Shown: piece after piece, positions 24,354 to 28,037 of the stretch
Numbering within the stretch: the first letter of the stretch is position 1
How the letters are laid out: the number at the start of each line of letters is the position of its first letter
NCBI GenBank assembly: GCA_023053685.1
Contig: JALIGW010000002.1
Location: 45,573,278-45,637,277 of the forward strand
DNA: 64,000 nt
Source: Diadophis punctatus similis
Taxonomy: Eukaryota; Chordata; Lepidosauria; Squamata; Dipsadidae
Reading direction: 5' to 3'
Translations under genes and position numbers: made by a program
The notes under the pieces: model-generated
What the model saw: the letters and a program-made list of their open reading frames with translations, nothing else
Told to the model about the DNA's origin: nothing
Database searches by the model: none

Positions 24354-24411
24354 TTTTTTTTATTGAAAAAGTTTTATTAGTACAGAGTACAAACATTTTT
24401 TAATTTTTCTC

Positions 24412-24449
24412 CCCACCCCCACCCCCTTCCCTCCCCCCCTCCCCCCCAG
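24412..24449 (-). repeat. G-rich polypurine tract
   Basis: On the minus strand this is a run of G and A with several blocks of four or more G, which could form a G-quadruplex. It sits about 60-90 bp inside the 3' end. Confidence 0.75.
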
Positions 24450-24804
24450 ACTCCCCAGAGAGAACACAGGGCATAATATCAGTAATTACAGAAGAAAAAA
24501 GAAAAAGGAAAAACCCCTCAACCCCTCAACTCCAAATTACACATTGCTAACATCATTAAATTTCTATATTTTATATTATTTCCCATATAATTCTAAAAAA
24601 TAAAAAATAAAAGTTAAAGATATATTAATTATATAATCTGAGTTATACAAAGGAAGGAAAACAGTTTCTCCCTCCTCCTTTCAATCATCTTTCTAGATCT
24701 ATAAAAATTATTAACAATACTAAATCTTTAAAAAAAACCATTAATAATAATAATAATCTCATAATTAACTAAAACCAAAAAAAATTTTCATAGCTAATAT
24801 CAAG

Positions 24805-25150
24805 ATATTAAATAATAATACCTTTAAATTTCATCATAACAACATATTACTCTAAAGAGACCTATTAACTCAAATAAAACTAAAAAAATATTACATGTCT
24901 ACATATTAAATAATAAAACTTTTAAATTTCGTCATAACATAATATTATTATACAACAACTTTAATTCATAATAAAAAATATTAAATAATAATACCTCTAA
25001 GTTTCTCATAATAACATTATTATACAACAACTTATTAGCTCAGATAAAAAAAAATATTACATGTATTAAATATTAAAGCCTTTAAATTTCATCATAACCA
25101 CATAATATTATTGTTCAACAACTTGTTAATTCATAATAAAAAAATATCCT
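24805..25150. repeat. Degenerate tandem repeat in the half-L1 3' region
   Basis: Four diverged units share a block like ATTAAATAATAATACCTTTA followed by AATTTCATCATAAC. They start near 24808, 24904, 24979 and 25062, giving a period of roughly 75-97 bp. They lie where ORF2 would be expected. Confidence 0.7.
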
Positions 25151-25164
25151 TAAAGGTAATATTG

Positions 25165-25417
25165 ATAATAATAATAATAATAATAATAATAATAATAATA
25201 ATAATAATAATAATAATAACAATAATAACAATAATAATAATAATAATAATAATAATAATAGTAATAGTAATAACAATAAAAATAATAACAATAGTAATAA
25301 CAATAGTAATAATAATAATAATAATAATAATAATAATAATAATAATAATAATAATAATAATAATAATAATAATAATAATAATAATAATAATAATAATAAT
25401 AATAATAATAATAATAG
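25165..25417. repeat. (TAA)n microsatellite in the half-L1 3' region
   Basis: About 253 bp of TAA units, interrupted by a few TAG and CAA variants at 25260-25310. It gives spurious poly-isoleucine and poly-tyrosine frames. Confidence 0.98.
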
Positions 25418-25701
25418 TAAAAATCTAGAAAAGAGAGAGAGAAAAACAAAAACCTAAAACAAATAGAAAGAAAAAAAAACCTTCCTTTAAATTTTAGAAA
25501 TCTGATTGTAATAATTTAAAGCTCAATAGTTTTAATTAAAAATTAAGGATTCCAATTCTTAAAGAATTATTAAAAAAAAGAGGAAAAAAAATCTTCTCTT
25601 TCTCTTTCCCCCTTAAAAGAAAAGAAGGAAAGAGAGAAAAAAAAAGGGGAGAAGAAGAAAATACAATTATATTATCTCCATCCATCTAATACATATCAAC
25701 A

Positions 25702-26805
25702 CTACTTCTCTTTATATCTTATTGGTTGCCTCCTTTTGTATCTTGATGATTTTGAATTTATCAGCTCCTCTTCCATCTGATCCCAATACTCCATCTCCTT
25801 TTTCACATCTTTCTGGCTCTGCGATTCACTTTGAGTCTTTGAGATTATTTCATTTTGATCCAATAAGAATGACTTTTCCTCCTTGTCTTCTTCTACATTC
25901 ATACGTTTTTCTTCTGGAATTTTAGATATATCAGCCTTTAAAATATTGATATAAAATTCGGTAGCTTTGTTTATCGTATTCAGCCGGTATCTTTTCTCCA
26001 AAAATTTCACCGTAACTCCTGTTGGTGCTTCCCATTTGTATTGTAAATTCAATCTTTTAAGTTCATCAATCAAAAAAGTAAATTCTTTTCTAGCTTTAAG
26101 CATTTTAAAGGGAATTTCTTTCCAAATCTTAAGTTCCTGACCATTCACCTGAAGATTATTCTTAAATGTCGCCTGGATAATTCTGTTTCGTAAGACTCTT
26201 GTAGTAAAATATATAACAATGTCCCTTGGTAAATGTTTTTGTTTTGCATACCACGAATTGACCCTGTATAACTTTTCAATTTGTATAGCCAGCTCATCTT
26301 TAGAAATTCCAGAAACCTGCACCAAGGCCTCAATCATTCTTCCCTTCAAATCGTCATATAAACCTTCTTTCAACCCCCTTACTCTAATAGCGAATTGCGT
26401 TCTTCTAAACTGTGACATCAACACCTCTGTTTCAAAATTTGCAATATCCTTTTTAAATTTGTTTATATATTCCACCGAGGTTGCCAACGCTTGTTTATTT
26501 GTTTCAATACAATCCTCCAAAAAATCAACATTTGTTGCTAAACCTTTGCAAACCTCTAACATGTCCATCCGTAGCTGCTTTTCCATATTCTTCAAAGCTT
26601 CCTGCATTTTATTTTCTATTTCAGTAATTTTTTGATTAAATTCCAAAATTAAGTCTTGTTTCATAATCTTTAAAGTATTTAGTAAATTTTCCGATGTCAA
26701 AACTTGTGGAGGTGTTGGTTCAGTAGCAAGTTGCATTTTAGAAGTAAAAGCAGAGGGGTAAATAGGCCTTTTATTCGAAACAATCATTCCATATTTTGAG
26801 GCCAT
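25702..26805 (-). CDS. L1-type ORF1 protein, intact, 367 residues
   Basis: L1 ORF1 protein is a trimeric RNA-binding chaperone that packages its own RNA. Residues 36-128 are rich in charged heptads and look like the coiled coil (NQKITEIENKMQEALKNMEK). Residues 137-225 fit the RRM-like domain (FAIRVRGLKEG, LPRDIVIYFTTRVLRNRI). Residues 226-292 fit the C-terminal domain (KARKEFTFLIDELK, LQYKWEAP). The tail from 293 is acidic then basic. There are no stops or frameshifts over 367 codons, although flanking copies of other elements are decayed. The start is the first ATG of the frame after an AT-rich leader. A host gene is unlikely because it lies wholly between L1-type UTRs and target duplications. 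Confidence 0.85.
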   Translation of the reverse strand: MASKYGMIVSNKRPIYPSAFTSKMQLATEPTPPQVLTSENLLNTLKIMKQDLILEFNQKITEIENKMQEALKNMEKQLRMDMLEVCKGLATNVDFLEDCIETNKQALATSVEYINKFKKDIANFETEVLMSQFRRTQFAIRVRGLKEGLYDDLKGRMIEALVQVSGISKDELAIQIEKLYRVNSWYAKQKHLPRDIVIYFTTRVLRNRIIQATFKNNLQVNGQELKIWKEIPFKMLKARKEFTFLIDELKRLNLQYKWEAPTGVTVKFLEKRYRLNTINKATEFYINILKADISKIPEEKRMNVEEDKEEKSFLLDQNEIISKTQSESQSQKDVKKEMEYWDQMEEELINSKSSRYKRRQPIRYKEK

Positions 26806-28037
26806 TGTTGTAATTCCAAAAAATTAAACTAAAAATGCCAAATCACTATCAGTTTTTATAATCCAAAATTGAGAATCAAAAATAAAAACCAGTTTTCAAA
26901 TTCAAAAATTTCCCAAAGTCCAAAAACCACAAACAAAACACAAATAACTTTCACTTCTTCTTTATTATACTTCCAAAGAGGTGCAAAAAAGAGTCAAATC
27001 TGTAAAAATAAAAATAATAATAATAAAAAAAAATTCTTGCAATTTCCAGGGCAAATAATCTTTTATAATTTATTTATATTAAAATTATCAATTAGTGTTA
27101 TAATCCAAAGTTACGGAGCAGAGAATAAAAATCAATTTTCAAAATTTCCACAAGAGAAAAGCCAGGAAAAAAAAAATCAATCCTTCCAAACTTGAAACCA
27201 TTTTTATATTTCCAGAAAAGTATGAAAAAAAGCCATAACTCTAAATGAAATTCTTTCCAATGTAAAGGATAGAGAGTTTTTTAATTTCCAGAGTCAGGAG
27301 ACAGAGAAAAAAAAATCAATCTTCAAAGTTGTAATTTTCCATAAGAAAAAGAGCCACAAGCAAACAAGGCAAAAATCACCTTCACTTCTCTTCCCAACTT
27401 CTTCAAAACGCCTTAAAAAGCCAGATCTCTAAAAAGATACTTTCCACTTTCAAAGGCAAATAATCCTTATTTTTGTCAATTATCAGAGAATATAAGAAGG
27501 ACAGCCAGTTTTCAGTTTTCAGAACAAAGAGTTTCCATAAGAGAAAAAAAAACCACAAGCAAAACGGAAATCACTTTCACTTCTCCTCCTTCAAACGCCA
27601 TATTGTTGCATATTAGATGTTACTTTGTTTCTTCAAATAGAAGTTAGCCGAGGGTTTAAAAAAAGAAAAAAAAATCCATACTTGCCCAGCAAAGCCCCTG
27701 GTTCTCTCTGTCTGCCTTTTTAACTGCACAGAAAAAAAAGTTTTAAAAATCCTCTTCTAGAGGCAGCGGCGGCTTCGGCGTCTAGCTCCGCAAAAGTGGA
27801 GATTTCCTGGCTCCCGGAGCTAGGGGCAGGCTACCTGGGGAGCCTTCCCTTCGTGCCCCTGGATGACTCCTAGGGCGCTAGGGGGGCTCTACCCCACCTG
27901 CCACGCTCTCCTCTCTCCCCTATGTCCGGGGCAGAGATATTCCGAGCCGCCAGACAGCTGTTCTGGCGGCCCGGCAGGGAGTCGGAAAGGCGTCCTGAAA
28001 GAAGAACGCCATCGGCGCCGAACACCAAACCGGAAGT
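26806..28037 (-). promoter_or_regulatory. 5' UTR and presumed internal promoter of the half-L1
   Basis: The first 280 bases (28037 down to about 27755, minus strand) are CpG-rich and begin ACTTCCGGTTTGG. CTTCCGG is an ETS-type core. The remaining 950 bases are A/T-rich with many T runs on the minus strand. A CpG-rich start at the 5' terminus is typical of L1 internal promoters. Confidence 0.6.

Follow-up and report, generated by a model that had tools for sequence, protein, structure and literature searches.

Half-L1 elements (HAL1s) are non-autonomous L1 derivatives that encode only ORF1p and are described, in the relevant passages of the source, as having several origins in mammals (PMC5753468). 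They carry poly(A) tracts and target-site duplications (TSDs) and borrow the enzyme that full-length LINEs encode (PMC5322556), have been described as active in the genome of the rat (PMC8535693), and appear in the relevant passages of PMC4161310 only as likely users of the L1 machinery. Given ORF2p in trans, a tagged ORF1 transcript retrotransposes (PMC2666806; PMC4859970), and passages of the same papers name HAL1 insertions as a natural case of such trans mobilisation of an ORF1 transcript. L1 proteins nonetheless show cis preference (PMC2666806; PMC5860796), and the need for ORF1p in trans is disputed: non-autonomous elements reportedly undergo efficient trans-retroposition without requiring it (PMC5322556), whereas polymerase-II-made passenger RNAs do need it according to the authors of PMC2666806. 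Both the cis preference and this dispute count against a simple trans-mobilisation story. Among full-length L1s, those of Anolis carolinensis are reported as 5.2–6.8 kb long, with families L1AC1 to 15 carrying 5'UTRs of 800–1,500 bp (PMC5389967, as excerpted). Spliced L1 RNAs also insert in humans, accounting for 131 of 6,609 annotated full-length L1PA1–L1PA6 copies; these SpIREs are internally deleted L1 copies that bear L1 insertion hallmarks (PMC5860796).

Here we describe a 3,684-bp element on the minus strand of a 64-kb stretch of DNA (the window), at positions 24354..28037 (5' end 28037, 3' end 24354), whose anatomy is that of a half-L1: a complete 5' end, ORF1 only, a poly(A) tract and a TSD. 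In sense orientation, a 1,232-bp 5'UTR is followed by ORF1 at element positions 1233–2336 and then by 1,348 bp of post-ORF1 sequence. The initial annotation had proposed this HAL1-like architecture, and all of its components were found; it had also placed the element at exactly these coordinates, and to these we add the strand. The element is L1-derived with ORF1 only, as HAL1s are, and by analogy with their published descriptions (rather than their sequences) it resembles them in encoding only ORF1p, in its poly(A) and TSD, and in a presumable dependence on the full-length L1 enzyme. It differs in that HAL1s are multicopy, with origins reported within mammals, whereas a single copy is present in the window. 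Compared with Anolis carolinensis L1s, its 5'UTR falls within the reported range, a likeness of lengths and not of sequence, but at 3.68 kb and without ORF2 the element is shorter than the 5.2–6.8 kb of the full-length copies.

The hallmarks of L1-type insertion, namely a TSD and a 3' poly(A), are both present. An exact 17-bp repeat flanks the element at 24337..24353 on its 3' side and 28038..28054 on its 5' side; no such similarity arose among 2000 random pairs of 40-bp stretches spaced approximately as the TSD pair is, where at least 12 shared bases occurred in 0 of 2000 and the longest match, 11 bases, in 2 of 2000. The terminal tract consists of 10 A on the sense strand (24352–24361), of which two overlap the repeat as the last two T of its 24337..24353 copy, so that the duplication measures 15–17 bp, the size that had been claimed for it together with the poly(A). 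The 3' end (24354..24383, minus strand) combines this tract with two AATAAA motifs (element positions 3660 and 3674). A G-rich polypurine run of 26 purines (24422..24447, minus strand; element 3591–3616) lies within a longer G-rich stretch, where a 3' polypurine tract had been expected. Joining the flanks into an empty site gives an inferred plus-strand nick of TGTT/GA, which agrees at 4 of 6 positions with the L1 endonuclease consensus TTTT/AA. Since the TSD and poly(A) denote retrotransposition, a domesticated single-copy gene is ruled out as a first reading, although the host may have put the element to use afterwards.

The intact ORF1 (25702..26805, minus strand) spans 367 codons from ATG plus a stop, or 373 codons stop to stop, in agreement with the single 367-codon frame claimed for it. 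Chance is ruled out as its origin, as dinucleotide shuffling of the element, repeated 300 times and read in the three sense-strand frames, gave longest frames of 127 codons at most and 74 on average. Around the start codon, position -3 is A and position +4 is G. Residues 172–263 match LINE-1 ORF1p in phmmer searches against PDB (2ldy, E 4.3e-5; 2ykp, 6e-5; 2yko, 6.5e-5), entries that we take to be human LINE-1 ORF1p. The element thus shows the ORF1p homology of the L1 clade through these PDB matches, and the Pfam family Transposase_22 speaks against it, scoring E 0.071 and 13.9 bits, below its cut-off of 22.4; because of this low score, the ORF1 product would at best be a diverged L1 ORF1p. 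NCBIfam returned one irrelevant match only on ORF1 (E 0.051). Hydrophobic residues show heptad-like spacing around residues 40–125 by a simple score taken without a control, and an AlphaFold model made without an alignment, poor overall (mean pLDDT 45.7, pTM 0.21), contains a single long helix at residues 38–131, well scored only at about 41–70. These features hint at a coiled coil around residues 40–125. The same poor model has no strands, and hence no RNA-binding fold, and is uninformative about the RNA-binding part of the protein.

Upstream of ORF1, the 5'UTR (26806..28037, minus strand; 1,232 bp) is CpG-enriched over its first 400 bp, with 22 CpG and an observed/expected ratio of 0.70 compared with 0.37 for the window. 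This agrees with the CpG-rich 5' end noted at first, although denser places elsewhere in the window, with up to 52 CpG per 400 bp, make it an enrichment and no unique island. Near the very start stand two candidate cores, an ETS-like CTTCCGG (element position 2) and a YY1-like ATGGCG (position 26). Further in, the 5'UTR contains degenerate repeats (window 26806–27600, minus strand), seen as five off-diagonal matches of 70–88% identity over 40–83 bp; the best scored 51.8 bits, whereas 60 controls, shuffled throughout the 5'UTR except for its first 250 bp, reached no more than 32.8. Their offsets of 184, 195, 243, 431 and 626 mostly come close to a multiple of roughly 200 bp (the fit of 243 is poorer), and this spacing suggests that the repeats are diverged monomers. 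Mouse L1 promoters are monomeric, and the repeats of this element are reminiscent of them.

The post-ORF1 region (24354..25701, minus strand) is 1,348 bp long and AT-rich, and ORF2 was not detected in it. Pfam searches in six frames, with stops read as X and matches kept to E 1, found neither an endonuclease nor a reverse transcriptase; there were two matches in all (E 0.044 and 0.1), both irrelevant and antisense to the element. In addition, phmmer searches of the three sense frames against PDB found no ORF2p, with one irrelevant match at E 0.68. These results bear out the claimed absence of ORF2. They also rule out an ORF2 hidden in the tail by frameshifts, within the reach of a search run without a same-family ORF2 as positive control, which a short or very diverged remnant could escape. 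The L1 clade is also marked by an ORF2 that encodes an endonuclease and an L1-type reverse transcriptase; as none was detected in the tail, the element is an L1 derivative and not an autonomous L1. Instead, the region holds a 268-bp TTA-type microsatellite (25157..25424, minus strand) and four diverged tandem units (24812..25161, minus strand; 77–96 bp as cut) that are 69–90% identical to one another.

A long microsatellite in this position makes an assembly collapse plausible, and ORF2 might have been dropped from the assembly there, for instance at the TTA array. We give this artefact only a very slight chance: the window contains no N, and no ORF2 was detected in the 277 bp (25425–25701) between ORF1 and the array. 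A real but later loss, in which a full-length L1 inserted here and ORF2 was subsequently removed by a genomic deletion, would yield the TSD, ends and ORF1 as observed. Such a deletion must take nearly all of ORF2 while sparing ORF1, and ORF2 is about 3.8 kb long. In a random-breakpoint model using this length, with the gap and the allowed remnant varied, 0.2–3.1% of the deletions starting 3' of ORF1 take all or nearly all of ORF2, which makes a later deletion less likely than a source already lacking ORF2, and on the whole improbable. The same figure does not separate an ORF1-only lineage from a one-off event at the RNA level. The tail itself suggests a history before the insertion, since its units differ by 10–31%, in contrast to an open ORF1 and two TSD copies without a single difference; by this reasoning it belonged to the source and was not made at or after insertion. 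This argument is no proof, given that AT-rich repeats can diverge fast, and it is silent on whether the source had an ORF2.

The open frame bears on age. We modelled a neutral ORF1 and its chance of staying stop-free under several transition biases, and found that it would do so with P < 0.05 beyond 4.2–5.9% divergence, the range reflecting the transition bias, or beyond about 2% once frameshifts, assumed to be 8% as frequent as substitutions, are counted too. With ORF1 still open where neutral decay would close the frame, the copy is probably young. The initial annotation had gone further, reading the open ORF1 as a sign that an ORF1-only lineage is under selection or has very recently been amplified. 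That conclusion does not follow, as a recent one-off deletion product looks alike; the open frame shows only the probable youth of the copy and an open ORF1 in its source.

Such a one-off product could arise if ORF2 were spliced out of a full-length L1 RNA, cut off by premature polyadenylation or skipped by template switching, and the shortened RNA then inserted a single time, with no ORF1-only lineage behind it. It would explain the intact ends, the TSD and the open ORF1 equally well, and it has precedents in the insertion of spliced L1 RNAs in humans mentioned above and in 3'-truncated L1 RNAs with ORF1, which are discussed as possible sources (PMC4859970). Two of these routes would leave marks other than those seen, though neither point is directly decisive. 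The spliced class of PMC5860796, as far as its relevant passages describe it, loses parts of the 5'UTR or ORF1 and not ORF2, with splice junctions in the 5'UTR or between 5'UTR and ORF1; the present element has the opposite arrangement, keeping both 5'UTR and an open ORF1 with ORF2 undetected. Premature polyadenylation within ORF2 would be expected to leave the start of ORF2, which was not detected in the tail. We consider a one-off derivative rather unlikely, if less so than loss by later deletion.

Taken as a whole, the locus is best explained as the recent insertion of an L1 derivative copied, most likely, from a source in which ORF2 was already missing, a reading to which we assign a probability of roughly 0.55. 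It is supported by the exact 17-bp TSD, the intact ends, the nick agreeing at 4 of 6 positions, the likeness to ORF1p, a tail without ORF2, the older-looking state of that tail, the small share of modelled deletions that remove nearly all of ORF2, and the published mobilisation of tagged ORF1 transcripts in trans. Counted against it are the single copy in the window, the lack of confirmed relatives in viral contigs and prokaryote genomes, and the Transposase_22 score of 13.9 against 22.4 bits. As the element lacks ORF2, an RNA with ORF1 only could not have inserted unless ORF2p acted on it in trans. The element RNA would have been transcribed from an internal promoter in the 5'UTR, polyadenylated at the L1-like 3' end and probably bound by its own ORF1p, and it would have inserted by target-primed reverse transcription with ORF2p provided in trans by a full-length L1, as proposed for mammalian HAL1. 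Less surely, further copies may share the same ORF1-to-tail junction.

Within the 64-kb window we found no second copy of the element and no other meaningful fragment of ORF1, the best other match having E 1.4. Searches for relatives in viral contigs and prokaryote genomes, collections not meant for vertebrates and from which the window's own genome may be absent, gave 9 and 25 stretches fitting a peptide pattern, respectively, with 0 confirmed in either; exact patterns of both element ends had 0 matches in the viral contigs, and that of the 3' end had 0 in the prokaryote genomes. In a partial literature collection, judged by titles and the openings of abstracts, none of the matches listed reports an ORF1-only L1 in a squamate, and the term ORF1 is absent from the main texts of PMC6036668, PMC8303610 and PMC5059746.

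The window holds other repeats and fragments besides the element. A broken endogenous retrovirus adjoins it at 29064–32160 on the minus strand, with one piece carrying RNase H and the integrase zinc-binding region, a second with the integrase core and a third from the envelope (TLV_coat). Fold-back elements of about 100–165 bp occur at 15592–15723, 19175–19297, 30696–30861 and 38975–39104, with mutual identity of 77–83%, and the one at 30696–30861 extends across one edge of the integrase frame of the retrovirus. There is also a near-perfect 342-bp palindrome at 16937–17278, 93% self-complementary, as well as a pair of inverted copies at 5673–6319 and 8396–9031 (82% identical) whose frames appear LINE-like by eye; Pfam found no family to E 0.01 in two of these frames. 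Two long adjoining frames of 366 and 268 codons at 61467–63371 look, by eye, presumably DIRS-type, with no Pfam family to E 0.01 and one irrelevant PDB match at E 0.82. Rfam (gathering thresholds) and ARAGORN gave no matches on the window.

Beyond the single insertion, we put forward tentatively, at somewhat below even odds, that the element represents a non-mammalian ORF1-only L1 lineage, independent and active until recently, whose 5'UTR is built of repeats and which has a long tandem-repeat tail of its own where ORF2 would be; full-length L1s of the same genome would sustain it. As a lone copy, the element is a curiosity. If its junction recurs in other copies, and if the host is a squamate as the initial annotation has it, then L1 parasites with ORF1 only would have arisen outside mammals as well, and a comparison with mammalian HAL1 could then ask whether an RNA's own ORF1p helps it to win ORF2p in trans.
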